A stretch of 64,000 nucleotides of DNA from Nitrospira sp. (GTDB lineage Bacteria; Nitrospirota; Thermodesulfovibrionia; Thermodesulfovibrionales; Dissulfurispiraceae), in NCBI GenBank assembly GCA_002634385.1, contig NSJL01000005.1, positions 62,001 to 126,000 of the forward strand. The letters run 5' to 3'. Numbering within the stretch: the first letter of the stretch is position 1; each line of letters starts with the position of its first letter. Shown here piece after piece: positions 42,676-62,882 of this stretch. Below the pieces are notes generated by a model, which did no database searches, was not told where the DNA came from, and saw nothing but the letters and a program-made list of their open reading frames with translations. Position numbers and translations under genes: made by a program.

Positions 42676-42733
42676 TACGCGCTGGAGAGGGTAGAGACAT
42701 TGCGTGTGAAAAAAGAAGGTTTTGGGGGAAGAT

Positions 42734-44704
42734 ATGGGAAGAGCTGCGTCACTGATTAGAATCCTGAGTGTTATCCTGGCGTTGGCGCTGGCGGGTGCGA
42801 TCAACACGGCACAGGGCGAAGAGAAGCTCAATTACCGGAGCATGATCGATGAGGTGGGGAGCCTTTTGAATGAGGCGCTGAGCCTGTATAAAAAGGGGAA
42901 TAGCGGGGAGGCGAAACAAAAGGCCCAGGCAGCGTATTTCGAAGTGTATGAAAATCTCGAAGGCCCCATCCGCATAAATATTTCCGCGAAGAAGAATGTC
43001 GAACTCGAGGAAGAGTTTATCGCTATCCGCACGATGATTGTGGCAGGAGAGCCGGCTGCGGCTGTCGAAAAGAGGATAAACGGGTTCATGTCCGAGCTCA
43101 GGTCTTTGATTCCTGAGCTGGAGGGCGGGGTCGAACTGGTTGCTGAAGCCTCGAACGATACGAAACAGCAGGGGAAGGATACGGGGAGCGGTGCGGGCGC
43201 GGAACCCATCGAGCCTGTCTGGCTCCAGGCCTTTGAGAACATCCGGTCCGGGCTCGGGAAAGCCCTCGACGCATACAGGAGGGGTGACCCGAAGAGGGCT
43301 GCGGAGCTTGTCATTCAGACCCAGTTTGACGAGTACAAGAACAGTCTTCTTGAGACGGCGGTCAGGCGTCATATCTCCCAAAAGAAGGATTTTGAGAACA
43401 ATGCCGGCTTTTCCGAGATAGCGGGCCTGATCCAGCGCGGGGACGCGCCGAACCAGGTCGAGACGCGGATATCCGGCCTTATAAAGGAGTTGAGAGCCGA
43501 CCTGCCGGGGCTCCCCGTTGTTGACCGGGCGGTTTCAAAGAAGCTGGCGGAAAGGTCCGCAGCAAAAGAAGAGCCCGAAAAGGATTGGTCAAGGGTAACG
43601 GCCGACCTTTTCAGGGAGATCGACAAGGCGATAGCCCTTTATGAGAAAGGCGAGACGAAGAATGCCGTGAGCCTCATGCAGGACACCTATTTCGATGTCT
43701 TCGAGGCGAGCGGCATGGAAGCGAAGATCGGCGCGAGGGACCCGGATTTCAAGGCAGCGCTTGAGGGGCATTTCAGCATGATCATAGGCCGGATGAAAAA
43801 AGGCGTGCCCGCCGGTGAGATGGAGGGCTCCCTCGCCGCTATGAGGACAGATTTCGAAAGGGCGGTTGCCCTGCTGGGAAAGGGCAAGGACTCGCCGGTG
43901 GCACTGTTCTTCTACTCACTCATGATCATCCTGCGTGAGGGGATCGAGGCAATACTCATTATAACTGCCATTATCGCCTATCTCGTGAAGACCGGCAACA
44001 ACGACAAGCTTCGGGCCATCTACAACGGCTGCATTTCCGCCCTTGTGTTGAGCGTCATCACGGCGGTCCTCGTGAAATGGGTCTTCAAGACATCTGCCGC
44101 GAGCCAGGAGGTGCTGGAAGGGGCGGCCATGCTCCTCGCCTCGGTGGTGCTTTTCAGCGTCAGTTACTGGCTGGTCGCGAAGGCTGAAGCGCAGAAATGG
44201 ATGGCGTATATAAAAGGGAAAGTGAGCGATTCCCTCAGCTCCGGCTCTCTCAAGGCGCTCTGGTTTGCAGCTTTCCTGGCAGTGTACCGGGAAGGGGCCG
44301 AAACAGTGCTCTTTTATCAGGCTCTCGCTTCCGGTTCGGCCGGCTCGGGGGTAACGGCAATAGCCGCGGGGTTTGTGCTCGGGTGCGTGTTGCTCGGCGT
44401 TCTGTATCTGGGGATGCGCTATGGAGCGGTGAAGCTTCCGATACGTCCGTTTTTCCTCTGCACCGGCGCGTTGCTCTACTACATGGCCTTTGTATTTGCC
44501 GGTAAGGGAATGATGGAGCTGATCGAAGGAAAGCTTTTTGAACCCTCGCTGATTTCATGGATACCTGTTGTTCCGTTTCTCGGGGTGTATCCCTATGTGC
44601 AAACGCTGATTCCGCAGCTCGTGATCATACTTGCTGCCGTAGCGGGGCTTGCAGTACTGGTAAAACGGAAAGGCGTTCCCGTAAAGGAGGCGCCGAACGG
44701 ATAA
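42734..44704 (+). CDS. FTR1-family iron permease with triple periplasmic repeat
   Basis: 656 residues. Signal peptide about 1-28. Residues about 35-390 hold three tandem copies of a 95-110-residue helical domain, each with a YKKG/YRRG/YEKG turn, a following YF/FDVYE-like helix, and a G-x-P-x-x-x-E-x-R/S stretch. Residues about 395-650 are the seven-helix FTR1 permease with the two REXXE iron motifs: REGIE near 400 and REGAE near 519. FTR1 proteins move Fe across the inner membrane, often with Fe(II) oxidation. Most bacterial fusions have one such domain. The start is ATG 42734 with GGGGGAA. It leads the P19-type uptake operon. Confidence 0.9.
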   Translation: MGRAASLIRILSVILALALAGAINTAQGEEKLNYRSMIDEVGSLLNEALSLYKKGNSGEAKQKAQAAYFEVYENLEGPIRINISAKKNVELEEEFIAIRTMIVAGEPAAAVEKRINGFMSELRSLIPELEGGVELVAEASNDTKQQGKDTGSGAGAEPIEPVWLQAFENIRSGLGKALDAYRRGDPKRAAELVIQTQFDEYKNSLLETAVRRHISQKKDFENNAGFSEIAGLIQRGDAPNQVETRISGLIKELRADLPGLPVVDRAVSKKLAERSAAKEEPEKDWSRVTADLFREIDKAIALYEKGETKNAVSLMQDTYFDVFEASGMEAKIGARDPDFKAALEGHFSMIIGRMKKGVPAGEMEGSLAAMRTDFERAVALLGKGKDSPVALFFYSLMIILREGIEAILIITAIIAYLVKTGNNDKLRAIYNGCISALVLSVITAVLVKWVFKTSAASQEVLEGAAMLLASVVLFSVSYWLVAKAEAQKWMAYIKGKVSDSLSSGSLKALWFAAFLAVYREGAETVLFYQALASGSAGSGVTAIAAGFVLGCVLLGVLYLGMRYGAVKLPIRPFFLCTGALLYYMAFVFAGKGMMELIEGKLFEPSLISWIPVVPFLGVYPYVQTLIPQLVIILAAVAGLAVLVKRKGVPVKEAPNG

Positions 44705-44783
44705 TCATCATACAAAGTGTTTAAGGGATGGCGTTGCAACCCGGGCATTGTCCCGGAGAACCAATCAGGAGGAGGTAGTTTAC

Positions 44784-45317
44784 GTGAAGAGAATGCTTGC
44801 AGGTTGTATGTTATTGGTTTTTTTGTCGGGGTTTTCGCTGGTTGCTTACGGAGCCGAGAAGATGAAGGAGTATCCGGCGGGTGAGGAGAAGGTGCTCAAT
44901 AAGATGAAAATCGCGGCGGTTTACCTGAAGCCCATCGATATGGAGCCCCGGGGCACGGACCTCCCTGCGTCACAGGCCGATATTCACCTTGAGGCGGACA
45001 TTCATGCCACGAAAGGGAACCCGAACGGTTTCGGTGCGGGAGAGTGGATACCGTACCTCACCGTTACCTACAAGCTGGAGAATCTCGATAATGGCCAGTC
45101 GAAGACAGGCAAGTTCATGCCGATGGTTGCAAAGGACGGACCCCACTATGGAGCCAACATCAAAATGATGGGCGCAGGCAATTATAAGGTTACCTACACC
45201 ATTGAGTCCCCGGAGAAGCAGGGCTTCGGCCGCCATACCGATGAGGCTTCCGGCGTCGGCAAATGGTTCCAGCCGTTTACGGTCGACTATACCTTCAAGT
45301 ATGTACCTCTTAAGTAA
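44784..45317 (+). CDS. P19/Tp34-family periplasmic iron-transport protein
   Basis: 177 residues. Signal peptide about 1-26. The mature sequence carries the family features: YLKPIDMEPRGTDLP near residue 50, ADIHLEADIHATKGNPNGFGAGEWIPYLTV-type strands, and MVAKDGPHYGANI with a conserved His. Family proteins (Campylobacter P19, Treponema Tp34, FetP) are dimers that bind Cu and Fe via His, Met and Glu and pass iron to an FTR1-type permease. GTG start with AGGAGGAGG eight bases upstream. The gene directly follows the FTR1 permease, matching the known pairing. Confidence 0.9.
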   Translation: MKRMLAGCMLLVFLSGFSLVAYGAEKMKEYPAGEEKVLNKMKIAAVYLKPIDMEPRGTDLPASQADIHLEADIHATKGNPNGFGAGEWIPYLTVTYKLENLDNGQSKTGKFMPMVAKDGPHYGANIKMMGAGNYKVTYTIESPEKQGFGRHTDEASGVGKWFQPFTVDYTFKYVPLK

Positions 45318-45340
45318 GGCTGTGTTTGAATTTTAAAATT

Positions 45341-45493
45341 ACCCTCTCCCCCGCCTTCCCCCAGGGGGGAGGGTAATTATGTAGGGGCGACCCTGTGTGG
45401 TCGCCCTGTATCATCCGGGCAGCCACACAGGGCTGCCCCTACCAAAAACATATTTCTCCCCCCTTGAGGGGCGGGGGAATATCGGGGGAGGGT
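45341..45493. repeat. Nested palindromic MITE-like element
   Basis: Two 26-base arms, 45381-45406 and 45417-45442, are reverse complements at 22 of 26 positions. Each arm is itself a hairpin (GGGCGACC-ctgtgt-GGTCGCCC and GGGCAGCC-acacag-GGCTGCCC). Outer C/G-rich tracts (45341-45370 and about 45456-45493) also pair. No coding. It is inserted between the P19 and DUF2318 genes. Confidence 0.75.
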
Positions 45494-45510
45494 GAAAGGC
45501 GGAGAAGAAA

Positions 45511-50787: not shown

Positions 50788-51210
50788 TCAGAGGATTCCC
50801 AGGAGGGTAGTGAAGGTGGAATGGTGTTCCTCTTCGTCCCTCAGGATCTCCTCGAAGAGCTTTCGTGTCGCGGGATCGTTTTCCTTCTCCGCCCGGGCTA
50901 TGATCTCGCTGTATAGCTTCAGGGCGTTCTGCTCCTGGCCGAGGTTAATCATGAGCATTTCTTTCGCGTCGGGAGGCCCTACCTGCACTTCCGACGGCTG
51001 TGTCGTGGGCATTCCGCCGAGGCTGACGAGTCTTTCAGCGATCTCCTCGGCATGGGTCATCTCGATGATTGCGATCTTCTTCATGATCGTGCCGACGGAA
51101 CCGGCATCGATGCTCTCCATGATGACGTGCTGCCACATATAGGAGATGCTGACCGACAACTCCCGCGCGATCGCGGAATTGAGCAGGTCTTTCATCGTGT
51201 CGCTCGCCAT
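50788..51210 (-). CDS. Ferritin-like diiron protein (bacterioferritin type)
   Basis: 140 residues from the ATG at 51210. The four-helix ferritin-like pattern is clear: an early Glu in AIARELSVSISYMWQ, the E-x-x-H pair in IEMTHAEEIAERL, a third-helix Glu in LGQEQNALKLY, and the last E-x-x-H in LRDEEEHHSTF. These provide a diiron centre. Proteins of this length are bacterioferritin or Dps-like relatives that oxidise or store iron. It is the last gene of the first P-type ATPase operon, 13 bases after the small membrane gene, tying it to iron storage. Confidence 0.85.
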   Translation of the reverse strand: MASDTMKDLLNSAIARELSVSISYMWQHVIMESIDAGSVGTIMKKIAIIEMTHAEEIAERLVSLGGMPTTQPSEVQVGPPDAKEMLMINLGQEQNALKLYSEIIARAEKENDPATRKLFEEILRDEEEHHSTFTTLLGIL

Positions 51211-51223
51211 GATCGATTCCCCC

Positions 51224-51409
51224 TTATTCTTTTTTCTCTGTCTCTCTCGCTGCTTCTTCGACCATCTGTTCCAGCCTGTCGAGGCGTGTCTCGGTATCCT
51301 GCTTCTCCCGGATCCTCGAAACGACATAGGCGCCGCCCACCACCGCCCCCGCACCCAGGGCGATGTTCAAGACCGGTCTCAGATACTTCCTCGTCCACCG
51401 CATCGTCAT
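51224..51409 (-). CDS. Short membrane protein, family B copy 1
   Basis: 61 residues. The N-terminus is basic, followed by a glycine-rich helix (LNIALGAGAVVGGAYVVS) and a coiled-coil tail (EKQDTETRLDRLEQMVEEAA). Its ATG overlaps the stop of the family A gene (ATGA). Two close relatives are at 54106 and 59815, always directly after a family A gene. No family name recognised. Its first 50 codons lie in the 451-bp near-identical repeat shared with 54154-54604. Confidence 0.75.
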   Translation of the reverse strand: MTMRWTRKYLRPVLNIALGAGAVVGGAYVVSRIREKQDTETRLDRLEQMVEEAARETEKKE

Positions 51410-51707
51410 TTCGCCTCCTTCTTTCTTGCCCTCTTTTTCTCGACCGCCTTTTCCGTCTTCTCCAGGATCTCTTTTTCCCTCCGTACCGCCTCGGCCGTCG
51501 TCTCGATATCTTTGTGGTACGCATGCTTCGCCTCGGCAACGATATCCTCGGCGTCTTCCCTGACTCTCTCGATTTTCGAAGCCGCCCATTCCTTAAAGGC
51601 GTATCCCTCTTTCACGGCCCCCACGACCGCGGGCCTTACCTTTTGGGATACTTTGCCGATGCCGATCGCCGCAAGGGCGCCGAGCGCTCCCCCCGCCGCA
51701 AGCCAGA
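51257..51707. repeat. 451-bp near-identical direct repeat, copy 1
   Basis: Matches 54154-54604 at an offset of 2897; the only mismatch I found is at 51310 (G) versus 54207 (T). It covers most of the family A and family B genes. The two copies flank the first ATPase gene in the same orientation. Confidence 0.9.
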
Positions 51708-51900
51708 TAGACCGTTTCGCTATAAAGAAAAAACCACCCATGTGCCTGCCTCCTTCCGCGTATTTTCCCTTTCCTTCATGGTCGTGCTCAAGCCTCTTGC
51801 TTCTACGGCTGTGGCCCTCACCATGGTCCTCTTTCCCGTGCTTTCTTTTGATCTCTTCAAGCTCTTTTCTGATCGCATCCTTCATCTCTTCCTTTCCCAC
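51406..51900 (-). CDS. Membrane/coiled-coil protein, family A copy 1
   Basis: 164 residues. A charged His-rich N-terminus (EDHGEGHSRRSKRLEHDHEG) is followed by a helix AAGGALGALAAIGIG, the conserved segment VRPAVVGAVKEGYAFKEW, and a long charged coiled coil ending in KKRARKKEAK. Two paralogues are at 54303 and 59367; from about residue 60 onward copy 1 and the 54303 copy are identical. The start overlaps the end of the ATPase gene by 19 bases. No known family is recognised. The amphipathic tail suggests membrane-associated assembly. Confidence 0.78.
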   Translation of the reverse strand: MGKEEMKDAIRKELEEIKRKHGKEDHGEGHSRRSKRLEHDHEGKGKYAEGGRHMGGFFFIAKRSIWLAAGGALGALAAIGIGKVSQKVRPAVVGAVKEGYAFKEWAASKIERVREDAEDIVAEAKHAYHKDIETTAEAVRREKEILEKTEKAVEKKRARKKEAK

Positions 51901-54101
51901 AGAGACACCTCCTTCCGGGAGTGAAACAACAGTTTTCTTACGTTAGGTTTCTGAATAGCAACAGAAATTCCCCTCCTGTCAAGCGTGACGGCAGGAAGCC
52001 GGCTCTGCGCGCACATCCCATGTACGGTTGCGCCGCTCTCGTCGACCATAAAGGGCCTCAACGACCTGACCGCCACGATGATCGTAGCGGCGTTATGCAC
52101 GAAGGCGGAAAAAACAGGGGGAATTGTGCCCAAAAGACCGAGCCCCAGCAGCACAGAATTCGTACCGATGATACGCTGGAAATTCTTTTTGATGCGGAAC
52201 ATGGCGCCCTGTGCTATTGTAATCGCATCGAACACCGCCTCGAGCCTTCCGTCAAGCAGAAGGACATCGCATGCCTCCCTCGCGATATCGGCCCCGTGCT
52301 TCATCGATATGCCCACATCCGCATGGGACAGGGCCGGGGAATCGTTGATGCCGTCCCCCACCATTGCCACAACATGTCCCCTGTTTTTAAGACCTTTGAT
52401 TATGTCGGTTTTCGTATCGGGGAACACCTCCCACTGGTAGTCTTGTATCCCGAGGCGTTCCGCCACGCTCCTGGCGGCGGTTTCATTGTCCCCCGTAAGC
52501 ATGACTACTCTCTCGACCCCCGCTCCTTTCAGCAGGTGCAGGAATCTCCGTGAATCGTCCCTGAGAGGGTCATCGATCGTGATGATGCCGGCAAGCTCAT
52601 CGCCGATGGCTACATACAGAATGGAGCTTCCGCGGTCCGATAATTTCCTGACGGCAGGCTCCGCGGACGCAACGCTGATCCCGTTGTCTTCATGGATGAA
52701 ATGCCTGCTGCCGACGAGAATCCTTCGGCCTCCTATCCGTGATGCGATGCCGTGGGCGACGATATACTCCACCTCCGCATGCTCCTCCTCGTGGACAAGG
52801 CTTTCGTCTTCAGCCTTCCGGGTGATGGCCGTGGCTACGGGATGGGGAAAGTGCTCTTCAACACACGCCGTATGTTTCAGTATGTATTCCCTGCTGTAGC
52901 CGTTCAGGGACAGCACGTCCACCACGCGCGGCCTCGCTTCGGTGAGCGTCCCCGTCTTGTCGAGGACAAAGGTATCGGCTGCCGCCAGCTTCTCGATGAA
53001 CTTCCCTCCCTTGATCAGCACGCCCCGCCGGGAGGCGTTCATCATGGCGGACATAATGGTCAGCGGGGTAGACAATTTGATGGCGCACGAGTAATCGACC
53101 AGCAGCACCGATGCCGCCTTGGCGGGATTCCCGGTCAGGGCATAGGTCAATCCGCTCAACAGGAAGGAGTAGGGGACGATCCTGTCGGAGAGCCTTTCCG
53201 CATGGCTCTGGACTTCGGCCTTTAGCCCTTCCGACTCCTCGATGACCGTGACGATTCTGGAGACCCTTGTTTCATCGCCGGTCTTTTGGGCCTCCACTAC
53301 GAGTTTCCCTTCCCCTACCGCAGTCCCTGCATAGACCATGACGCCCTCTCTCTTCATGACCGGCAGGGACTCTCCCGTCAGGGACGACTGATTGACCATC
53401 GCCTCGCCTTCCACAACGATTCCATCAACGGGGATCGTACTGCCGGACCTTACCACAACATGATCTCCCGGCACCAGATGCTTTGCGCTGAGCCGCTGCT
53501 CAGTGCCGTTTCTCCTCACCCAGACCGTTTGCTCTGAATAGTAGAACATCTTCGAGAGGCTCTCTCTGGACCGGTGGCGCGTCCATTCCTCCAGATAATC
53601 GCTGATTTTCAAAAGGAACGAGATCACTCCGGCAGTGAAGAGCTCCCCTGTTCCCATCGCTACGGCTATTGCGCTCGCGTCGAGGACATCGACATTCAAA
53701 CGTCTGCTGAACAGGGAGTTGAGTCCTTTCCTGAAAACAGGCAGAGCTCCCGAAAAAGTAATCAGGGGCCTGAGGGGAAGAGGAATGAACGGTCTTGCCA
53801 GAAGAAGACTGCCGGAAAGCATAGCGGCCTTTTTTTTCTTTTCGAGAGCGCTCCTTTCTCGTTTTCGTCTCGAAAACGGCACTTCCGCTCCGCCTGCTGC
53901 CGACAGCAGGGCGGCTTTTGTCCCTTCACCGCTATACTCGATGAACAGGTTACCGGTGCGGTAATTATAGGAGACCGCTTTTACCCCGGCAATAGAGGAA
54001 AACAGGTTCTCGATTCGCGCGCTGTCGGGTATGGGTCTCCTGGGAACAGAAAGCTGTATTCTCAGCCTGCCCGGTACATTATGAATGATGCGATACCTCA
54101 T
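51882..54101 (-). CDS. P1B-type ATPase, SCA-motif (P1B-6/FezB-like), copy 1
   Basis: 739 residues. N-terminal HMA-like domain without CxxC (VPGRLRIQLSVPRRPI), then the P-type ATPase core: LTGES, the membrane motif VDYSCAIKLSTPL where CPC/SPC stands in most P1B pumps, DKTGTLT with acceptor Asp381, HFPHPVATAI of the nucleotide domain, MLTGDNETAA and VGDGINDSPAL. An SCA motif marks the P1B-6 class, which includes the FezB ATPases needed for ferrosome formation. It probably moves iron into a vesicle or across the inner membrane. An unusual 45-residue tail follows the last helix. The start ATG 54101 aligns with the second ATPase. Confidence 0.88.
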   Translation of the reverse strand: MRYRIIHNVPGRLRIQLSVPRRPIPDSARIENLFSSIAGVKAVSYNYRTGNLFIEYSGEGTKAALLSAAGGAEVPFSRRKRERSALEKKKKAAMLSGSLLLARPFIPLPLRPLITFSGALPVFRKGLNSLFSRRLNVDVLDASAIAVAMGTGELFTAGVISFLLKISDYLEEWTRHRSRESLSKMFYYSEQTVWVRRNGTEQRLSAKHLVPGDHVVVRSGSTIPVDGIVVEGEAMVNQSSLTGESLPVMKREGVMVYAGTAVGEGKLVVEAQKTGDETRVSRIVTVIEESEGLKAEVQSHAERLSDRIVPYSFLLSGLTYALTGNPAKAASVLLVDYSCAIKLSTPLTIMSAMMNASRRGVLIKGGKFIEKLAAADTFVLDKTGTLTEARPRVVDVLSLNGYSREYILKHTACVEEHFPHPVATAITRKAEDESLVHEEEHAEVEYIVAHGIASRIGGRRILVGSRHFIHEDNGISVASAEPAVRKLSDRGSSILYVAIGDELAGIITIDDPLRDDSRRFLHLLKGAGVERVVMLTGDNETAARSVAERLGIQDYQWEVFPDTKTDIIKGLKNRGHVVAMVGDGINDSPALSHADVGISMKHGADIAREACDVLLLDGRLEAVFDAITIAQGAMFRIKKNFQRIIGTNSVLLGLGLLGTIPPVFSAFVHNAATIIVAVRSLRPFMVDESGATVHGMCAQSRLPAVTLDRRGISVAIQKPNVRKLLFHSRKEVSLWERKR

Positions 54102-54105
54102 GTCC

Positions 54106-54306
54106 TTATTTGCCTTGTGTCCTCTTGCTCCCTGCATTCTCCCCGGAAAGACTTTCGACCATCTGTTCCAGCCTGTCGAGGCGTGTCTCGGTATCCTGCT
54201 TCTCCCTGATCCTCGAAACGACATAGGCGCCGCCCACCACCGCCCCCGCACCCAGGGCGATGTTCAAGACCGGTCTCAGATACTTCCTCGTCCACCGCAT
54301 CGTCAT
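54106..54306 (-). CDS. Short membrane protein, family B copy 2
   Basis: 66 residues, identical to copy 1 over the first 50 or so residues (LNIALGAGAVVGGAYVVS and the following coiled coil) and divergent at the C-terminus (SLSGENAGSKRTQGK). It overlaps the family A copy 2 stop by four bases and lies four bases before the ATPase start, so it is the second gene of the operon. Confidence 0.75.
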   Translation of the reverse strand: MTMRWTRKYLRPVLNIALGAGAVVGGAYVVSRIREKQDTETRLDRLEQMVESLSGENAGSKRTQGK

Positions 54307-54604
54307 TTCGCCTCCTTCTTTCTTGCCCTCTTTTTCTCGACCGCCTTTTCCGTCTTCTCCAGGATCTCTTTTTCCCTCCGTACCGCCTCGGCCGTCGTCT
54401 CGATATCTTTGTGGTACGCATGCTTCGCCTCGGCAACGATATCCTCGGCGTCTTCCCTGACTCTCTCGATTTTCGAAGCCGCCCATTCCTTAAAGGCGTA
54501 TCCCTCTTTCACGGCCCCCACGACCGCGGGCCTTACCTTTTGGGATACTTTGCCGATGCCGATCGCCGCAAGGGCGCCGAGCGCTCCCCCCGCCGCAAGC
54601 CAGA
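54154..54604. repeat. 451-bp near-identical direct repeat, copy 2
   Basis: Partner of 51257-51707. Recombination between the copies would remove 2897 bp including the whole first ATPase gene and leave one hybrid A-B gene pair. Confidence 0.9.
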
Positions 54605-54740
54605 CACTGCGTTTGCTTATGAAGTATCCGGACATATGCTCGTTTCCTTTTTCATCTTGTGCGATGGTATCACCTGATCCCTTTTCCGGTTTTCCTGTCC
54701 CTTTTACGGCGGCCTCTTCCTCTTTCTTCCTCTCTCCCAC
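54303..54740 (-). CDS. Membrane/coiled-coil protein, family A copy 2
   Basis: 145 residues, GTG start with GGGAGG upstream. It has a charged, disordered N-terminus different from copy 1, then YFISKRSVWLAAGGALGALA, VRPAVVGAVKEGYAFKEW and a coiled-coil tail identical to copy 1 from the repeat onward. First gene of the minus-strand operon (A, B, ATPase, A, B, ferritin-like). The segment YFISKRS is shared with copy 3 at 59367, which suggests copies 2 and 3 keep the original N-terminus and copy 1 was altered. Confidence 0.78.
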   Translation of the reverse strand: MGERKKEEEAAVKGTGKPEKGSGDTIAQDEKGNEHMSGYFISKRSVWLAAGGALGALAAIGIGKVSQKVRPAVVGAVKEGYAFKEWAASKIERVREDAEDIVAEAKHAYHKDIETTAEAVRREKEILEKTEKAVEKKRARKKEAK

Positions 54741-55044
54741 GCAAAACCTCCCTCTATTTTGGACTTGCTGCTACCCGAAGTGTATCGTAGCTTGCTACCT
54801 GCTGATTCCGGTCAATTCCGTCCTCCCCATCGGGCTCCTGATCGCGAGGGAGCCTCCGGCACGAAAAAGTGAAATCTTGTTTTGTTAAGAAAATATTACC
54901 TCAAATTTGGAAATGATGCAACAAAAAATAAATAAAAACAACGGGATTAGTGCTTTTAAGACGCATTTGCATTTAATGTCCCGATCAGACCCGGTGGCCG
55001 GGGTACCGGTACTGACAGAGCGGGGCATCCGCCAGAAATAGCAA
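54741..55044. other. Divergent intergenic region, no gene seen
   Basis: The 372 bases between the two clusters contain the start signals of the minus-strand operon and, at the right end, the promoter of the plus-strand HMA-like gene. The middle (about 54870-54960) is AT-rich. I see no coding and no TGAGA-N5-TCTCA palindrome here. Confidence 0.5.
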
Positions 55045-55073
55045 TTGACAAAGCCATGCGAGGTACCTACAAT
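55045..55073 (+). promoter_or_regulatory. Sigma-70-type promoter of HMA-like gene
   Basis: TTGACA (55045-55050), 17 bases, TACAAT (55068-55073), 40 bases before the ATG at 55113. Close to consensus. Confidence 0.7.
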
Positions 55074-55112
55074 AAATTGAAATTGAGTATCACTTCCATA
55101 AAGGAGAGTGTC

Positions 55113-55538
55113 ATGGTTACCAGTTACGTAGAAGGGAGAGTGAGAGTAAGGGACAAAGCGCTGAACAGATCCTCCACGATTACAGCACTCAAAGAAAGTC
55201 TTCTGAAGTACAAGGGAATTATCAAGGTGACGGAGAACCGGAGGGTCGGAAGTCTCCTTGTTATTTATGACAGAGCAGTAACCGGTATCAGGAAAATCAT
55301 GGCGATTATTGCCGGCTATCTGAACACAAGCGGTACCCTCAACAAAGTGACGGCTTCCATAAAAAGATCGGGAAAGGCATTCAGGCGGGCTATCAATATC
55401 GGGATGCTCTCTGCATTGCTCGCAAGTATCGTCGCCGCAATAGTGGGCAGCAAGGGGATGCATGTAATTGCCGGGACAGGTTTTCTGGCTCTCTTTGCAA
55501 TGCATTTTTACCGGCATAAAGAAATGGTTTTTGCATAA
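55113..55538 (+). CDS. HMA-like membrane protein with GRVRVR motif, copy 1
   Basis: 141 residues, ATG with AAAGGAG upstream. Residues about 1-75 look like an HMA (ferredoxin-like) fold without the CxxC: VEGRVRVRDKALN at the position of the metal loop and a second half IKVTENRRVGSLLVIYD. A transmembrane pair (SALLASIVAAIVG, IAGTGFLALFAMHFY) follows with basic end YRHKEMVFA. A close paralogue is at 58908. Ferrosome operons include small membrane partners of the ATPase; assignment to that role is inferred from architecture and location. Confidence 0.75.
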   Translation: MVTSYVEGRVRVRDKALNRSSTITALKESLLKYKGIIKVTENRRVGSLLVIYDRAVTGIRKIMAIIAGYLNTSGTLNKVTASIKRSGKAFRRAINIGMLSALLASIVAAIVGSKGMHVIAGTGFLALFAMHFYRHKEMVFA

Positions 55539-55599
55539 AAAGGAACAGTGTCGCCGGCGGGCGCTCTGCCGTAAAGGGTACGGACCGGAGTTTTCCCCC

Positions 55600-55640
55600 T
55601 TCCTGTCCTTCTCGATCCTGTTGCGATAACTGCAGGAAAA
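55600..55640 (+). repeat. Fragment of the TlpA-like gene
   Basis: Matches 50482-50522 with one mismatch (T to C) over 41 bases, same strand. It is out of any gene here and has no start, so it is debris of a duplication or rearrangement. Confidence 0.8.
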
Positions 55641-55709
55641 TAGGGCGGCCCTCTTGTCGTTTGTGCTGCTTGATTCCATTCGTGCATCGAAACCCCCTAT
55701 AAAATCAGC

Positions 55710-55745
55710 GAAAAAAGCTGCTTGCTTGTCGCTGGAGCTTTTTTC
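55710..55745. terminator. Bidirectional terminator-like inverted repeat
   Basis: GAAAAAAGCT (55710-55719) and AGCTTTTTTC (55736-55745) are perfect reverse complements. The stem is weak and A/T-rich, but the arms give T runs on both strands. It lies 172 bases past the HMA-like gene, before the next promoter. Confidence 0.4.
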
Positions 55746-55909
55746 AACGAGTAGTCTGCCGCCTTGCCCTCTGCATTCTTTCCATCAGGAATTTCCCGCA
55801 GTAAGCACCGATCGAATCAAATAGGGTGAGCGGGAGCCAGCACGGCAGTTCAATGAAACTACTGCGCGTGCCTGCGGGATTTCCATAGGGCCGGCTCTGC
55901 AAAAAATGC

Positions 55910-55939
55910 TTGACAAAGGTACATTGATATGCCTATACT
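55910..55939 (+). promoter_or_regulatory. Promoter of the second ATPase cluster (iron-island type)
   Basis: TTGACA (55910-55915), 18 bases, TATACT (55934-55939). It is nearly identical over more than 40 bases to the unit at 37095-37138, including most of the spacer. Confidence 0.78.
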
Positions 55940-55953
55940 GAGACACAATCTCA
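55939..55953. promoter_or_regulatory. TGAGA-N5-TCTCA operator candidate, second copy
   Basis: Same 15 bases as at 37124-37138, again overlapping the last -10 base. The shared unit implies a common regulator, plausibly Fur-family, acting on the cytochrome c gene and on the ATPase/Feo genes. Confidence 0.62.
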
Positions 55954-56085
55954 GATAAATGAGAGGGAATGAGGGTGTGCGGAGGGGATGCCGGCTGCTG
56001 ACGGCGACAGGCTCTCCCGGACTTTGTAAAGTACTTTTCTTGAAATACCTTTGCAGGGTTCACCCTGAAATAAGGAGGAAGTAAA

Positions 56086-56472
56086 ATGTCTCCACTGAGC
56101 GTACTGCCGGGCAGAATTCGCCTTGAGGACCGGTCGCTGATCGGAAAGGAGTATGGTTGCGCTCTTCTTCAGAGATCAGTAAGCGAGATCGACGGGGTGC
56201 TGGATGTGTCGGTCAATTACAGGACAGGAAGAATCCTGATCAGATTTGACGAAAACCGTATAGATAAACGCTCACTGCCGCACCATATCGGAGTCCTGAA
56301 GGAATCCCTGTCCGGGGAACTGGACAAGGCCGGCCCGCTTTCCGAAGGAACCAAGAGCGCTCCGGTACCTGGCGGTGTAGCTCACGTCGTCATTGACATG
56401 GTGGCCCATGCGCTTCTGCCGAAGCCGCTGAATTTTCTGCTGCCGGCTGCCATAAGCACCCTCATGAAATAA
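56086..56472 (+). CDS. HMA-like small protein with PGRIRL motif
   Basis: 128 residues, ATG with AAGGAGGAAG upstream. The N-terminal 70 residues resemble an HMA fold without cysteines: VLPGRIRLEDRSLIG, then LDVSVNYRTGRILIRFDENR. The C-terminal part (AHVVIDMVAHALLPKPLNFLLPAAI) is hydrophobic and may dip into the membrane. First gene after the operator-bearing promoter and followed by the second ATPase after 212 bases. Small HMA-like partners of P1B-6 ATPases are known from ferrosome operons. Confidence 0.76.
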   Translation: MSPLSVLPGRIRLEDRSLIGKEYGCALLQRSVSEIDGVLDVSVNYRTGRILIRFDENRIDKRSLPHHIGVLKESLSGELDKAGPLSEGTKSAPVPGGVAHVVIDMVAHALLPKPLNFLLPAAISTLMK

Positions 56473-56684
56473 AGCTGACCGCAACAGGGTCCGGTTTTCC
56501 GTAGCGCACGCTGCATCGGGAAGGGCGCTTGCGGGAGGGCGGGCCGTACTACGGTAAAGAATACGCCCGGACCGGTACGTGCAAGGACGGAGGGTATCTC
56601 TGACCCTTGAATTTCGTAGCGGGCAAGGAATCGCGCAGCTGGATCGCACGCCGTCTTGCTGCTGAAGGAGAGAAGAGGAGTAGA

Positions 56685-58889
56685 GTGAGATACAAGATAA
56701 TCCATGAGCTCCCGGGGAGAATAAGGCTTCTTTTAAGGGTCCCCAGGAGGCCCGTGATCGAGCGCTCCCGGATCGAGGCGCTCTTTGCGGACAGAGAGGG
56801 GGTTGAAAGGGTCGAGTTTCAGCACCGGACGGGGAGCCTGCTCGTACACTATAACGGCGGCAGCAGGGTCAGGGAGATGATACTCGATACCGTACAGGAG
56901 GCCCCGCTCTCCTTCGCTTCAGCACCCCGCTTGCGGGGAGGACGGCGGGAGGACCGTCTCGATGGCAAGAAAAGGGCGGTCATTGCCTCGGGAAGCCTGC
57001 TGCTCGCTTCCCCCTTTATCCCGGCCCCGGTTCGGCCCTTCCTGGCACTGTACGGGGCTATGCCCATTCTGAAGAAGGGCATCCTTTCCCTTGTGGGAAA
57101 AGGGCGTCTGAACATCGATGTCCTTGACGCATCGGCCATTGGAGTGGCGGCGGGCATGCGGGACTACCGCACGGTAGGAGTGATATCGTTTCTCCTGAAG
57201 CTGGGTGATTACCTGGAAGAATGGACCCGGCAGAGGTCGCGGCGGATGCTTTCCAGCATGGTGCAGGTCGTCGACGAGTACGCATGGGTCAGAAGAGAGG
57301 GCAGAGAGGAGAGGGTGCGGACAGAGGAAATCGCCGGGGGAGAGATCGTTGTGGTGAGGACCGGCAGCCGCATCCCCGTCGATGGTGTTGTTGCCGGGGG
57401 CGAGGCGATGGTGAACCAGTCATCCATGACGGGGGAATCTCTGCCCGTTATGAAGAGAAAGGGTGTTACCGTCCATGCCGGCACAGTGGTGGAAGAGGGA
57501 ACCCTTGCCGTAAGGACGACGGCTGCCGGAAGCAGGACGAGGATCGCCCGCATTGTCAAAGTGATCGAAGAGTCCGAGGAACGCAAGGCGGAGGTTCAGA
57601 ATTATGCGGAGAGGCTGGCGGACCGGATCGTTCCCTACACCTTTCTGCTGAGCGGATTGACCTATGCATTCACCGGTAACCCCGTCAGGTCCGCCTCCGT
57701 TCTTCTCGTGGATTATTCCTGCGCCATACGGCTCTCCACCCCCCTGGCCATCATGGCGGGGATGGTGAAGGCGGCACGGAGAGGGGTGCTGATAAAAGGG
57801 GGCAAATTCGTGGAGGCCCTGGCACAGGCGGATGTCTTTGTCCTCGACAAGACGGGGACCCTTACCGGGGCCGCCCCGGCAGTAGCGGAGGTGGTGCCGT
57901 TCGACGGATATAGCAGGGAGTACATCCTGCGGCATGCCGCCTGTGTTGAGGAGCATTTCCCCCATCCGGTTGCCACCGCGGTGGTACAGAAGGCCCGGGA
58001 GGAAGGGGTGATCCACGAGGAAGAGCATGGAGAGGTGGAATATATCGTCGCTCACGGTATCGCTTCGGCCCTGAACGGAAGGAGGATCCTCATCGGGAGC
58101 AGGCATTTCATCTCCGAGGACGAGGGGATTGATACCAGCAGGGCGGAAGAGGTCATCCGGTCGTTAGCGGAGCGGGGTCTTTCGATCCTGTACATGGCAA
58201 TCGACCGCGAGCTTGCGGGCATCATTGCCATCGATGACCCGCTGCGGGACGATACGGGAGTCTTCCTGCGGAAGCTGGACGAAGCCGGGATTAAAAGGGT
58301 CATCATGCTCACCGGGGATAACGAGGCCACGGCAAGAAGTGTGGCGGAGCGGCTGGGGATCAGGGAGTACCATGCCCAGGCGCTGCCCGACACGAAAGCG
58401 GAGATTATCCGGAAGCTGAAAGAAAGCGGGCATCGGGTCGCCGTAGTGGGGGACGGAATCAACGATTCTCCCGCTCTCGCCCTTGCCGATGTCGGAATCG
58501 CCATGAAGCATGGTGCGGATATCGCGAAAGAGGCGAGCGATGTACTGCTAATGGACGGAGACCTCACCGCCATCATCGACGCCAAGAGGGTGAGCCGTAC
58601 GGTAATGTCCCTGGTAGGGCGGAATTTCAGATATATCGCCGGGATCAACTCCGTCCTGATAGGTCTCGGCCTCTCAGGGGCTATCTCTCCCGCCCTCTCC
58701 GCCCTGCTGCACAATGCGACCACCGTTCTGGTGACGCTGAACAGCTTAAGCCCCCTTGCAGGGAAAGACGGCGGAGCTGATAACAGAACGTCTCCGGCAG
58801 GCGGTAGAGGAGATTGGGAAGCACGTGGGCACACAGTTCGACCCTATAGTGGTACAGGCGCTATTGAATATTCAGGTGAAAATCGATGA
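56685..58889 (+). CDS. P1B-type ATPase, SCA-motif (P1B-6/FezB-like), copy 2
   Basis: 734 residues, GTG start with GAGGAG upstream chosen by alignment with copy 1. It has a CxxC-less HMA-like N-terminus (ELPGRIRLLLRVPRRPV), then MTGES near 249, membrane motif VDYSCAIRLSTPLA with Ser345-Cys346-Ala347, phosphorylation site DKTGTLTG at Asp388, HFPHPVATAV, MLTGDNEATA and VGDGINDSPALALADVG. About 740-residue relatives with SCA motifs are P1B-6 ATPases. Highly similar to copy 1 by eye over the core, but with another C-terminus. It lies behind the shared promoter-operator and ahead of Feo genes. Confidence 0.88.
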   Translation: MRYKIIHELPGRIRLLLRVPRRPVIERSRIEALFADREGVERVEFQHRTGSLLVHYNGGSRVREMILDTVQEAPLSFASAPRLRGGRREDRLDGKKRAVIASGSLLLASPFIPAPVRPFLALYGAMPILKKGILSLVGKGRLNIDVLDASAIGVAAGMRDYRTVGVISFLLKLGDYLEEWTRQRSRRMLSSMVQVVDEYAWVRREGREERVRTEEIAGGEIVVVRTGSRIPVDGVVAGGEAMVNQSSMTGESLPVMKRKGVTVHAGTVVEEGTLAVRTTAAGSRTRIARIVKVIEESEERKAEVQNYAERLADRIVPYTFLLSGLTYAFTGNPVRSASVLLVDYSCAIRLSTPLAIMAGMVKAARRGVLIKGGKFVEALAQADVFVLDKTGTLTGAAPAVAEVVPFDGYSREYILRHAACVEEHFPHPVATAVVQKAREEGVIHEEEHGEVEYIVAHGIASALNGRRILIGSRHFISEDEGIDTSRAEEVIRSLAERGLSILYMAIDRELAGIIAIDDPLRDDTGVFLRKLDEAGIKRVIMLTGDNEATARSVAERLGIREYHAQALPDTKAEIIRKLKESGHRVAVVGDGINDSPALALADVGIAMKHGADIAKEASDVLLMDGDLTAIIDAKRVSRTVMSLVGRNFRYIAGINSVLIGLGLSGAISPALSALLHNATTVLVTLNSLSPLAGKDGGADNRTSPAGGRGDWEARGHTVRPYSGTGAIEYSGENR

Positions 58890-58907
58890 TTGGCTGGGGG
58901 GAATAGA

Positions 58908-59354
58908 ATGATACGTTTGATGGAGGGGCGGATCCGGGTCCGCGACGGAAAGCTGAAGGACCGCAGGATCGCCGGGGAGTTGGAAAAAGAACTGCATGCG
59001 GTCGGGGGGATTGGGGAGATCCGGTATAACCGGCGCACCGGAAGTCTCCTGATTTTCTTTGATACTGCCGTCGCGGACAGGAAGAGCATTTTGCGTCATA
59101 TCGAAGAGACAGTGGGGGGCTCCCTCCCTGCAGGAGGACTCCCGAACCGGAAGAGAGCGGACGGGGGGACGTTGCTCCCGCATTTTTCCGTAATCTCACG
59201 GAGAGCCTGCAACGGGGGCATGGCCGCTTCCCTTGCCGTAAGCCTGCTGGGGGTGGCGGCGGGAGGGGCAAAGCTGCACGCGGCCGCGGGAATAGTATTC
59301 ATCGCATTACTGGGTGCGCATATGTACCGGCATAACAAGACACTTTTCGCGTAA
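58908..59354 (+). CDS. HMA-like membrane protein with GRIRVR motif, copy 2
   Basis: 148 residues, paralogue of the protein at 55113: MEGRIRVRDGKLKDRRI, then IGEIRYNRRTGSLLIFFD for the HMA-like half, a linker, a transmembrane pair (MAASLAVSLLGVAAGGA, AAGIVFIALLGAHMY) and the same end motif YRHNKTLFA. The start could be the ATG at 58908 or 58920. It follows the ATPase by 18 bases and precedes family A copy 3 by 12 bases, so it is part of the same operon. Confidence 0.76.
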   Translation: MIRLMEGRIRVRDGKLKDRRIAGELEKELHAVGGIGEIRYNRRTGSLLIFFDTAVADRKSILRHIEETVGGSLPAGGLPNRKRADGGTLLPHFSVISRRACNGGMAASLAVSLLGVAAGGAKLHAAAGIVFIALLGAHMYRHNKTLFA

Positions 59355-59366
59355 GGAGGACCGGCC

Positions 59367-59831
59367 ATGTCGGAGGAAAGCAAGGGAAAGAAAAGGGAAG
59401 ACAGGGAGAAAGGAAAGGAAGGGGGAGAGGAGCGAGAAGGGGAGGGGTATAGCGTCGGCAAAGAAGGATACTTTATCAGCAAGCGCAGTATATGGCTTTT
59501 AGCGGGAGGCGCGCTGGGGGCTCTTGCAGCCCTCACACTCGGGAAAGCGGTGAGGAAAGCGAGGCCGGCTGTTGTCGGCGCCGTCAAAGAGGGATATGCC
59601 TTTAAAGAATGGGTTGCGGGGAAAACGGAAGGGATCAAGGAGGATATGGAGGACATTGTGGCTGAGGCGAAGCATTCCTACCATAAGGATCTCGATGTCT
59701 CCTCCGGGGCGGTGAAAAGGGAAAAGGAAGTTCTGCAAAAGATCGAGAAGGAAGTGGAGAAAAGGAAAACGAAGAGAGCGTCCGGGAGCAGGGAGGGCCA
59801 GCAGGAGGGGAAAGATGAAACAGACGAATAG
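59367..59831 (+). CDS. Membrane/coiled-coil protein, family A copy 3
   Basis: 154 residues, ATG with AAGGAGGA upstream. Highly charged N-terminus (EREGEGYSVGKEG), YFISKRSIWLLAGGALGALAA, then the family signature ARPAVVGAVKEGYAFKEW and a long coiled coil (AVKREKEVLQKIEKEVEKRK). It is clearly related to but more diverged than copies 1 and 2. It overlaps the next gene by 17 bases. Confidence 0.78.
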   Translation: MSEESKGKKREDREKGKEGGEEREGEGYSVGKEGYFISKRSIWLLAGGALGALAALTLGKAVRKARPAVVGAVKEGYAFKEWVAGKTEGIKEDMEDIVAEAKHSYHKDLDVSSGAVKREKEVLQKIEKEVEKRKTKRASGSREGQQEGKDETDE

Positions 59832-60021
59832 AGCGCGAAGATATGCTGGAACTTTTCTGACCCTTGTTGCAGGGGCAGGTGCGGTGGTGGGAGGAGCATA
59901 TCTTGTGTCGAGAATAAAAGAAAAACAGGACACCGAGACCCGTCTTGAGAGGATGGAGCAGATGGTGGAAGGGCTGGCGGGCGCCGGGAAGGGCGGCGCG
60001 GAAGCAAAGGGGCAAGGGTGA
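59815..60021 (+). CDS. Short membrane protein, family B copy 3
   Basis: 68 residues. VAGAGAVVGGAYLVSRIKEK, then QDTETRLERMEQMVEGL. Same plan as copies 1 and 2: basic start, glycine-rich helix, short coiled coil. Begins inside the end of family A copy 3 and overlaps the next FeoA-like gene by four bases (GTGA), so the A-B pair is translated together with Feo components. Confidence 0.76.
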   Translation: MKQTNRARRYAGTFLTLVAGAGAVVGGAYLVSRIKEKQDTETRLERMEQMVEGLAGAGKGGAEAKGQG

Positions 60022-60317
60022 AAAAGGAGAAGGCGAACAAGAGAGGGAAGGAAGCTCCTGTGATTCCTCTCGGGCTCCTCGCTGCCGGAGAAAAGGGAGA
60101 GGTAATGGGAATCCGGGGTGGAGGAAACAGCGCGTACGGGGGCCTTCCGGACTGTAGTGAAGGGCTCTGCAGAATCGAGGATATGGGTCTGCGTGCCGGC
60201 AAAGTGGTGGAGATGCTCAACAACGAGGGACGGGGGGCGCTCCTTTTGAAGATTGATGAGTCGAGAATCGCGATCGGCCGTACCATGGCGATGAAGATAC
60301 TGGTGCGGAAGCAGTAA
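60018..60317 (+). CDS. FeoA-domain protein, extended
   Basis: 99 residues, GTG start overlapping the previous stop. An SH3-like FeoA domain is seen: IPLGLLAAGEKGEVMGIRGG, then CRIEDMGLRAGKVVEMLNN and KIDESRIAIGRTMAMKILV. The first 14 residues are a basic extension. FeoA binds FeoB or its regulators at the cytosolic face of the Fe(II) transporter. Two FeoA genes in a row are common in anaerobes. Confidence 0.88.
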   Translation: MKKEKANKRGKEAPVIPLGLLAAGEKGEVMGIRGGGNSAYGGLPDCSEGLCRIEDMGLRAGKVVEMLNNEGRGALLLKIDESRIAIGRTMAMKILVRKQ

Positions 60318-60396
60318 GCGGTGCCCGTCAAGGGTGCCATACCCCTGAGAGGCATGCCCTCTCAAAAAACGAATAGGTCACGAATGAGGAGTGCAT

Positions 60397-60624
60397 ATGA
60401 ATCTGGCGGGTCTGAAACCCGGCGAACGGGGGAGAATCACGAAGATAGAGGTGTCCGGTCCGTTGAAGAGGCGGTTGATGGACATGGGGGTGCTTGTGGG
60501 GGAAGAGGTGAAGGTGGAAAAGGTGGCTCCCCTCGGCGATCCCATAGAAGTCACGATAAAGAGCTACAAGCTTTCCCTCAGGAAGAAGGAGGCGGAAAGG
60601 ATTGCCATGGAGGTGGAGAGATGA
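60397..60624 (+). CDS. feoA: FeoA
   Basis: 75 residues. MNLAGLKPGERGRITKIEV, LKRRLMDMGVLVGEEVKVEKVAPLG and SYKLSLRKKEAERIAMEVER match the FeoA pattern. The ATG at 60397 has GAGGAG seven bases upstream; a GTG two codons earlier is the alternative. Its stop overlaps the FeoB start (ATGA). Confidence 0.92.
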   Translation: MNLAGLKPGERGRITKIEVSGPLKRRLMDMGVLVGEEVKVEKVAPLGDPIEVTIKSYKLSLRKKEAERIAMEVER

Positions 60625-62882
60625 GGGCTGCGGGAGCCGATACCGGGGTGCGGAAGAACGGAGAGGGAAAAGACACGGTTGCCCCGACCCGGCCTGCTGC
60701 CGCGGGTCTCAGGACCATCACCATCGCCGTTGCGGGAAACCCGAATTCGGGGAAGTCCACCCTCATCAACGCCCTTGCCGGGACGCGGCTTCATGTGGGG
60801 AACTGGCCGGGGGTTACCGTCGAGAAGAAAGAGGCGTTCTTTGAGTTCGAGGGGAAGAGGATCAAGATCGTCGACCTGCCCGGCACCTACAGCCTGAGCC
60901 CTTACACCCAGGAAGAGGTGATCGCGCGCGATTATCTCGTGCAGGAGGCCCCCGATGTGGTGGTGAATGTGGTGGATGCCACCAACCTCGAGAGGAACCT
61001 CTACCTGACCGTGCAATTGATGGAGCTCGGGATCCCTGTTCTCATGGCGCTGAATATCTATGACGAGGCGGAGCAGAAGGGATACCGGATCAACATCAGG
61101 GCGATGGAGGAGATGCTCGGGGTGACTGTTGTCCCCACCGTCGCCACAAAGAAGACAGGTCTTCACGAGCTGATGCGGGCCGCCGTCGCCGTGGCAGAGG
61201 ACCCGCTGCACCATAAGCCCAAGCACCTCCATTACGGAGACGATATCGAGTCCGCCGCCCGGGGAATCGAAGAGAGGCTCGTGCGCGAGTATCCGGATCT
61301 TGTGCAGAAATACCCTGTACGGTGGCTGGCCCTCAAGCTCATGGAGGGAGACGGACACGTGCAGGAGAAGGTCAGGATCGATAGCGCCTCCCTGAACGGG
61401 TCGGTCCGGCATCTGCAGGAGGCGCATGGAGAGGATATCGAATCCCTCATGGCGGACGCACGGTATGCCCAAGCCTCGGGATTGACGAGGGAGGTGCTGA
61501 CGAAGCCCGATATCCGGAAGATGGAGATGACCGAGAAGATCGACAGGATCGTGCTCAACCGGTTCCTGGGTATTCCCATCTTCCTCGCCGCCATGTGGCT
61601 GGTCTTCAAGCTTACCTTCGATGTCTCGCAGCCTTTCGCTGACTGGCTGGATGCGATGATAACGGGTCCGTTCACAAGGTGGGCGGAAGCGGTGGTCGGC
61701 TTTATCGGGGCCCCTGATTGGACCGCTTCCCTCGTCACCGAGGGGGTCATTGCCGGTGTCGGCTCGGTGCTGGTCTTTGTGCCGGTCATCTTCGCCATGA
61801 TGTTCTTCATCACCTTCCTGGAGGGCAGCGGGTATATGGCCCGGGCGGCTTTCGTCATGGACAGGGCAATGCATGCCATCGGGCTGCACGGCAAGTCTTT
61901 CATACCCATGCTGCTGGGCTTCGGCTGCAATGTCCCTGCCATCTATGCTACGAGGACCCTGGAGAACCCGAAGGACAAGGCCCTTACCGCCCTGCTTATC
62001 CCCCTGATGTCCTGCGGCGCCCGGCTCCCGGTCTACGTGGTCTTTATCGGCGCTTTCTTCGCGTCCAGCGCGGGGACCGTCCTCTGGTCGCTGTATGTGA
62101 TGGGAATCGCGCTTGCCGTGCTGATGGGGGTCATCTTCAAAAGGACTCTCTTCAAAGGGGAGGCGCCCATGTTCATCATGGAACTCCCCCCGTACCGGAT
62201 GCCCTCTTTCAGGAGCCTCATGATCCATACCTGGGAGAAGGGCAAGCACTTCCTGATCAAAGCGGGGACATATATCCTCGCGGTCTCGGTGCTGGTCTGG
62301 TTTCTCCTGAACCTGCCCTGGGGAGTGGAGAGCAAGAAGGACTCCTATCTCGGAAAGGTGGGACAGGTGATTTCCCCTGTCTTCGCACCCCTCGGGTTCG
62401 GCAACTGGGAGGCGTCGTCCTCATTGATATCGGGCCTTATCGCAAAGGAGATCGTCGTGGGGACGATGGGCGAGATCTATGTGCAGAAGACGGAAACGGA
62501 AGAGGAAAAGAAAGAGACCCCGTCGTTCACGGAGGATCTGAAAGAGCTGGGCACGTCCTTCGCCGGGGCGCTGCGGGATGCCGCCACCAATGTCGTCTCG
62601 ACCTTCGGCATCGCCACCATGTCCGCGGAGGAGTCGTCGGAGGAGGTCGAGGAGCGGACGCCCCTGCGGGAGACGCTGAAACAGCAGTTCGGCCCTCTTT
62701 CCGCCTATGCGTTCATCACTTTTGTCCTCCTCTACATGCCCTGCGTCGTGGCCGCCATCGCCATGAAGCATGAGTTCGGCAACTGGAACCTGTTCGGCAT
62801 CGCCTTTGTCTACCAGATGGTCCTTGCCTGGGGGGTTGCCTTCATCATTTACCAGGGTGGGAAACTGCTGGGACTCGGGTAA
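60621..62882 (+). CDS. feoB: Ferrous iron transporter FeoB
   Basis: 753 residues. The N-terminal G domain has AVAGNPNSGKSTLINAL, VDLPGTYSLSPYTQEE and VVNVVDATNLERNL with GTPase motifs G1, G3 and the segment between. A helical regulatory domain follows, then two Gate halves with Cys-containing helices (LGFGCNVPAIYATR, LMSCGARLPVYV). An acidic insertion (KTETEEEKKETPSF) precedes the last helices. Fe(II) uptake across the inner membrane. The start is the ATG overlapping feoA; a 5'-longer frame would only re-read feoA in another frame. Confidence 0.95.
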   Translation: MRAAGADTGVRKNGEGKDTVAPTRPAAAGLRTITIAVAGNPNSGKSTLINALAGTRLHVGNWPGVTVEKKEAFFEFEGKRIKIVDLPGTYSLSPYTQEEVIARDYLVQEAPDVVVNVVDATNLERNLYLTVQLMELGIPVLMALNIYDEAEQKGYRINIRAMEEMLGVTVVPTVATKKTGLHELMRAAVAVAEDPLHHKPKHLHYGDDIESAARGIEERLVREYPDLVQKYPVRWLALKLMEGDGHVQEKVRIDSASLNGSVRHLQEAHGEDIESLMADARYAQASGLTREVLTKPDIRKMEMTEKIDRIVLNRFLGIPIFLAAMWLVFKLTFDVSQPFADWLDAMITGPFTRWAEAVVGFIGAPDWTASLVTEGVIAGVGSVLVFVPVIFAMMFFITFLEGSGYMARAAFVMDRAMHAIGLHGKSFIPMLLGFGCNVPAIYATRTLENPKDKALTALLIPLMSCGARLPVYVVFIGAFFASSAGTVLWSLYVMGIALAVLMGVIFKRTLFKGEAPMFIMELPPYRMPSFRSLMIHTWEKGKHFLIKAGTYILAVSVLVWFLLNLPWGVESKKDSYLGKVGQVISPVFAPLGFGNWEASSSLISGLIAKEIVVGTMGEIYVQKTETEEEKKETPSFTEDLKELGTSFAGALRDAATNVVSTFGIATMSAEESSEEVEERTPLRETLKQQFGPLSAYAFITFVLLYMPCVVAAIAMKHEFGNWNLFGIAFVYQMVLAWGVAFIIYQGGKLLGLG

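Follow-up and report, generated by a model that had tools for sequence, protein, structure and literature searches.

A 64,000-nucleotide stretch of a Nitrospira sp. genome (contig NSJL01000005.1; hereafter the window) likely carries two ferrosome-type (fez) gene clusters tied to iron import via FeoAB and FTR1-P19. The ferrosome, an organelle in which bacteria store iron, was described only recently, and little is known of the parts that assemble it; fez clusters with the P1B-6 ATPase FezB were reportedly described by Grant et al. in 2022 in Desulfovibrio magneticus, Rhodopseudomonas palustris and Shewanella putrefaciens. The kind of system found here is already known. What appears to be new is a small protein family (family B), the presence of two FezB-type pumps that are not sisters, an apparent operon with feoAB, and a candidate operator. 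The locus offers a candidate new ferrosome part with a sharp co-occurrence pattern, and a direct genetic coupling of a storage pump to an iron importer. The case is carried by the P1B-6 motifs and phylogeny of the ATPases, the fez gene content and order, a 4-bp overlap between a family B gene and feoA, the exact match of family B and ATPase occurrence across Nitrospirota, and a palindrome shared with a relative.

Two divergent fez-like gene sets lie between an FTR1/P19-like/FtrD-like system (42722-46980) and FeoA-FeoA-FeoB (60018-62882). Gene starts were placed from sequence by comparison with relatives. In transcription order, the minus-strand set comprises:

54303..54740, minus strand: family A copy 2 (profile match)
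54106..54306, minus strand: family B copy 2 (profile match), with a 4-bp ATGA overlap with A copy 2
51882..54101, minus strand: P1B-6-type ATPase 1 (FezB-like), DYSCA in transmembrane segment 4 (TM4) and HNAAT in TM6
51406..51900, minus strand: family A copy 1, FezA-position/DUF6110 lineage (profile match 1.2e-28)
51224..51409, minus strand: family B copy 1 (profile match 1.9e-29; no family-level Pfam match)
50788..51210, minus strand: mini-bacterioferritin, the last gene of this cluster (Pfam Ferritin 8.9e-30)

The plus-strand set, which runs on into feoA, feoA and feoB, comprises in order:

55113..55538, plus strand: FezC-like protein 1, HMA_2 and two helices with an invariant His pair (Pfam HMA_2 1.1e-10)
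56086..56472, plus strand: small HMA_2 protein with a C-terminal LLPKPL hydrophobic tail (Pfam HMA_2 2.2e-10)
56685..58889, plus strand: P1B-6-type ATPase 2 (FezB-like), DYSCA in TM4 and HNATT in TM6
58908..59354, plus strand: FezC-like protein 2 (Pfam HMA_2; model with a predicted local distance difference test score of 85.6 and an HMA fold)
59367..59831, plus strand: family A copy 3, FezA-position/DUF6110 lineage (profile match; profile comparison)
59815..60021, plus strand: family B copy 3 (profile match), sharing 17 bp with A copy 3 and 4 bp with the feoA that follows

The ATPases are thus accompanied by three family A, three family B and three small HMA_2 proteins and one Bfr-type ferritin-like protein, much as the original prediction had it (small HMA-like, ferritin-like and membrane/coiled-coil proteins, flanked by FeoAB and by FTR1-P19); both flanking systems are in place. 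That prediction left the HMA proteins as unspecified parts, which no longer holds, as two of the three are FezC-like. The rest of the genome (4.3 Mb in 77 contigs, searched piecewise) has no further ATPase of SCA type, no extra copy of A or B and no other full-length FezC. Overlaps of 4 bp occur at A2/B2, A1/B1, B3/feoA and feoA/feoB, which makes coupled translation probable; on the plus strand, the fez genes and feo seem to form a single operon. Homologues in relatives, with E-values of 1e-27 to 1e-270 and conserved gene order, are far beyond chance.

Both ATPases are of the P1B-6/FezB type by their TM4 and TM6 motifs (SCA and HNxxT) and by phylogeny. SCA is the TM4 motif of P1B-6 pumps in the P1B classification, and the SCA motifs and Cys-free HMA-like N-termini first read from the DNA were confirmed, with DYSCA in both proteins and zero Cys in their N-terminal HMA_2-like stretches. 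The two are 59-61% identical to each other and 39-61% identical over their full length to SCA ATPases of other fez-like loci. An alignment of 24 full-length relatives keeps D, S and C in TM4, and H, N and T in TM6, without exception; an HN motif in TM6 is a P1B6 feature (PMC9374683). In a 63-row tree the SCA ATPases form one clade of 50 rows (support of 98 in the Shimodaira-Hasegawa-like approximate likelihood ratio test), which takes in three exceptions to the motif (SCV in two Deinococcus sequences, ACP in one from Cereibacter) and lies apart from the CPC pumps of the same genome and of plasmids. Its members include Desulfovibrionaceae, Sutterellaceae, Lachnospiraceae, Brocadiaceae and plasmid clusters of Azospirillum (six genes), Arcobacter, Vibrio and Cereibacter; six-gene operons of alphaproteobacterial type thereby fall in the clade beside Desulfovibrionaceae. 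The proposal that both are FezB-type pumps is supported, as is a fez-like neighbourhood joined to Feo. Other P-type ATPases, from two relatives (G005, G055), were rejected as P1B-6, having FGTG in TM4 and no HN. They adjoin A-like proteins, small HMA_2 proteins and a putative Ca2+/cation antiporter gene (loci L004, L005), and may represent a sister system.

A scan of the collection with the ATPase TM4 segment gave 366 relatives, the best 80 of which were read as named loci. Family A lies directly upstream of the ATPase in 70 of these 80, and an iterated profile finds it in 88 loci. A relatives beside the Lachnoanaerobaculum and Deinococcus ATPases are Pfam DUF6110 (1.8e-37 and 3.5e-15, respectively). 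The window's own A proteins have no Pfam DUF6110 match; they align with Desulfovibrio A proteins (hhalign 98.3%, 1.1e-14), which in turn align with DUF6110 (profile comparison, 97.9%). Family A joins DUF6110-type proteins through these Desulfovibrio sequences and was rejected as a new family. DUF6110 genes have been reported together with P1B-6 ATPases and are described as related to DUF1490/PacL proteins (PMC9374683). By position and family, A is probably the FezA-type partner, as judged against DUF6110-type proteins encoded upstream of FezB-type ATPases.

Family B is probably a new part of the ferrosome system, in a multi-phylum sub-lineage. Of the extra components once put forward as possibly new, only B keeps that status; A falls to the DUF6110/FezA-position proteins, and the ferritin-like gene is unlinked to fez in the relatives checked. 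The B proteins are 58-72 residues long and read as one hydrophobic helix rich in glycine and then a charged one (SRIKEKQxTETRLERxEQ), with no family-level match in Pfam. Descent as a paralogue of A was discarded (hhalign probability 1.4%). Over 396 Nitrospirota genomes, the B profile matches the same five as the close ATPase, this genome included, and none of the 391 others; for independent genomes the probability of identical five-genome sets arising by chance is ~1e-11, though genomes that are related break this assumption. Within the 80 named loci B occurs in 12, always beside A, and it is also found in Brocadia, Geobacteraceae, Acidobacteria and Myxococcota clusters. The named loci from the same family as the window are L025 (Thermodesulfovibrionales) and L020 (Nitrospiraceae UBA665), both placed in Nitrospirota. 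The ATPases of B-bearing clusters form an 18-row clade (support 98/96) and B is present in every member with enough flanking sequence, which suggests that B was gained once.

Fez-like clusters of the window's lineage occur in six loci of anammox bacteria, Candidatus Brocadia/Brocadiaceae (L016, L017, L019, L021, L026 and L060), with A and B present wherever the contig reaches far enough (L017 ends at the ATPase). These clusters are a possible genetic basis of the iron-rich particles in anammox cells. Also near fez clusters is a conserved 92-residue protein (L020, 6230-6508), with nothing over the cut-off in Pfam and homologues in L003, L016, L019, L021, L026 and L060 (Nitrospirota UBA665 and Brocadia).

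FezC has been reported to be a heme b cytochrome of the ferrosome, with kinship to DUF4405 (PMC10979944). The two FezC-like proteins of the window have an HMA_2 domain and two C-terminal helices, with two His that are invariant among homologues, and sequence and model together predict such a cytochrome. A fold search of the FezC model against the PDB returned HMA domains as the only sensible top matches (best E 1.8e-3). The small HMA_2 gene with the LLPKPL tail recurs in three relatives (L113, L114, L115). Between ATPase 2 and FezC-like protein 2 lies a degraded gene:

58786..58911, plus strand: HD-GYP-type gene remnant, the last 40 residues and stop (tblastn 50% identity, 7.9e-8)

The C-terminus of ATPase 2 overruns this remnant, out of frame. 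The gene is intact between ATPase and fezC in L115 and L020, where it matches HD_5 (6.9e-39), and an HD-GYP-type phosphodiesterase gene adjoins the FezB-type ATPase in Nitrospirota (L003/L020/L115) and Brocadiaceae (L017) clusters, hinting at second-messenger control.

The ferritin-like protein is closest among solved structures to the 139-residue bacterioferritin 9qq4 (1.4e-25). Whether its gene belongs to the cluster or is a bystander moved there by rearrangement is, in our estimate, evenly balanced. Its homologues in the relatives G198 and G253 lie on contigs other than those with fez, so the ferritin-fez link is not conserved in those two relatives; no homologue is found in the first 95 loci; and on both sides of the ferritin-bearing module lies a 46-bp repeat, a piece of the neighbouring tlpA-like gene. 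Membership of the cluster is favoured by the gene's start only 13 bp after B1, which implies co-transcription, and by an Arcobacter fez-like cluster that likewise holds a ferritin-like DUF2202 protein. The latter (plasmid locus L010, 3964-4647) resembles ferritin-like proteins weakly and has, at its C-terminus, a membrane segment like a glycine zipper, and ferritin-like recruitment to fez clusters may recur. The direct repeat spans 46-49 bp, at 50479-50527 and 55597-55645, on either side of the minus-strand genes. Its second copy is a partial copy of the tlpA-like gene (50118-50642) and has the look of a rearrangement scar.

The two ATPases of the window are separate lineages, not recent duplicates. 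Forcing them together costs 49.8 log-likelihood units (approximately unbiased test, p = 0.0011); ATPase 1 pairs with that of G198 (96/94), beside Brocadiaceae, and ATPase 2 lies closer to Syntrophaceae and other Nitrospirota. The same test rules out, for the ATPases, that the whole cluster was duplicated recently, and only an A-B core is shared:

51257..51707 and 54154-54604: 451-bp A-B core tract, one mismatch, both flanks unrelated

The single mismatch over 451 bp between A1-B1 and A2-B2, together with the differing flanks, points to recent gene conversion. Brocadia pituitae has two A-B pairs as well. Misassembly at the repeat was dismissed by reasoning: swapped exits would put ATPase 1 on a separate circle, and the printed order is the sole linear path.

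Two clusters with their own ATPases might serve two different compartments, or one compartment under different conditions, rather than form one redundant system. We hold this as a tentative possibility and lean against it. The rejected monophyly of the ATPases speaks for such a division, as do the different palindromes near the two promoters; yet in the minus-strand set the A-B cores have become homogenised with one another, and the complementary content of the clusters (ferritin-like in one, small HMA in the other) fits one shared system too. A bolder combination is somewhat more doubtful still: that B, so far undescribed, belongs near-obligately to a separate ferrosome lineage spanning Nitrospirota, Brocadiaceae, Geobacteraceae, Acidobacteriota and Myxococcota, and that the two non-sister FezB pumps make iron compartments of two functional kinds, into which a co-transcribed Feo importer feeds directly.

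The predicted control elements are:

55045..55073, plus strand: sigma-70-like promoter of FezC-1 (11/12)
55079..55097: Fur-box-like palindrome GAAATTGA-N3-TCAATTTC, 2 mismatches, best match in the 64-kb window
55910..55939, plus strand: sigma-70-like promoter upstream of the small HMA_2 gene (11/12)

The palindrome has the 19-bp layout of a Fur box and begins six bases past the -10 of the best promoter, upstream of FezC-1. In G198 (3.6 Mb) the sole two sites with ≤1 mismatch precede feoAB and fezC, and a site with three mismatches precedes fur; the palindrome was spotted in G198 and the window at one step, which makes this test only partly independent. This genome has five 2-mismatch sites, one of them at the fezC-1 promoter, against one for a reversed control. 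The other four lie within long open frames with no evident iron genes. The sites were not accepted as a demonstrated regulon, the others in both genomes being in genes or without evident iron genes. Fur represses fez in C. difficile, according to one report (PMC12574912), and the 55079-55097 palindrome is a candidate operator at which Fur may act; this genome has Fur homologues, the nearest at C31:136296. An inverted repeat, CTGAGA-CACAA-TCTCAG (55938-55954), at the end of the -10 of the small HMA_2 promoter, is a possible second operator.

The neighbouring iron-uptake genes are:

42722..44704, plus strand: FTR1-type iron permease with a long N-terminal region (named from translation)
44748..45317, plus strand: P19-like periplasmic protein (named from translation)
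45511-46980, plus strand: FtrD-like protein (Pfam FtrD-like 3e-28), followed by two FtsX/MacB permeases and an ABC ATPase (Pfam FtsX, ABC_tran)
60018..60317, plus strand: FeoA-domain protein 1 (Pfam FeoA 4.8e-13)
60391..60624, plus strand: FeoA-domain protein 2 (Pfam FeoA 5.6e-23)
60621..62882, plus strand: FeoB (Pfam FeoB_N 1.3e-68; start placed from sequence)

Feo genes were detected in 28 of the 80 relative loci, and G198 has the row fur-feoAB-fezC-HMA-A-B-fezB (fur and feoAB named from translations).

So, what would these genes do together? Iron would enter as ferrous iron through FeoAB and by FTR1-P19, and the P1B-6 ATPases would carry cytosolic Fe(II) through the membrane of intracellular vesicles. 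Proteins A (FezA-type) and B, which both combine a single glycine-rich membrane helix with a charged helix on the cytosolic side, may cluster the ATPase and shape the vesicle membrane, or mark it, and the FezC-like HMA/two-His proteins could move electrons or hand over iron there. The mini-bacterioferritin beside this membrane would buffer or oxidise cytosolic iron, and a Fur-type repressor probably controls expression. Vesicle formation, iron as the substrate, the scaffold role of A and B and Fur as the regulator are what we infer from the gene set. Several points weigh against this storage reading: the membrane compartment is a prediction from the genes; the SCA clade is tied to the validated FezB proteins of D. 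magneticus, R. palustris, S. putrefaciens and C. difficile via motifs, gene content and published descriptions only; the window has no canonical Fur box within 3 mismatches; and most Nitrospirota are without the system, which is present in 5 of the 396 genomes, a distribution that suggests horizontal spread.

The same proteins could instead sit at the cell membrane as an iron exporter, a PacL-CtpC-like detoxification platform in which A and B would be scaffolds of the PacL kind, and no storage organelle would form. The DUF6110 relatives DUF1490/PacL do concentrate a P-type ATPase into foci in the membrane, for efflux (PMC9374683), and the membrane of residence cannot be read from sequence. We nevertheless consider an exporter unlikely, given SCA rather than CPC in TM4, the presence of FezC-like and small HMA_2 proteins, and the joining of the cluster to feoAB uptake, which suits storing newly imported iron better than efflux. 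It is very improbable that the pumps are of the CtpC-like or Cu/Zn P1B kind and move Zn, Cu, Co or Mn instead of iron: NCBIfam gives only generic P1B names, with the ATPase-IB_hvy, Cd and Cu subfamily models scoring, but the CPC of P1B-1/P1B-2 Cu or Zn pumps and SPC are absent from both ATPases, the Cu and Zn equivalog models fall far below their cut-offs, the clade is separate from the genome's CPC pumps, and iron genes flank the locus on both sides.

Among known systems, the PacL1/DUF1490-CtpC platforms share with the window a small single-TM partner with a charged helix, of DUF6110 kinship, beside a P1B ATPase with HN in TM6 (PMC9374683). CtpC, however, has CPC and exports Zn, whereas the window has SCA and iron genes; a DUF1490 partner with a CPC-type P1B6-like ATPase is absent from the window, which gave no DUF1490 match. 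The fez operon of Clostridioides difficile (FezA, FezB; PMC12574912) likewise pairs a membrane protein with a P1B-6 ATPase; it is reported to be Fur-repressed, and the window offers its Fur-like palindrome as a candidate for iron control. The window also has FezC-like proteins and B, neither of which was seen in the Lachnospiraceae relatives examined. The closest parallels are with the ferrosome fez clusters of D. magneticus, R. palustris and S. putrefaciens, as related in PMC10979944 and PMC12016538: a P1B-6 ATPase, a FezC-like HMA/two-His protein, a small HMA protein and an iron-gene neighbourhood, with a small membrane protein (A) directly upstream of the ATPase in most relatives. Unlike those clusters, the window has two non-sister FezB pumps, family B, a Bfr-type ferritin in the operon, an HD-GYP remnant, and fez genes in one apparent operon with feoAB.

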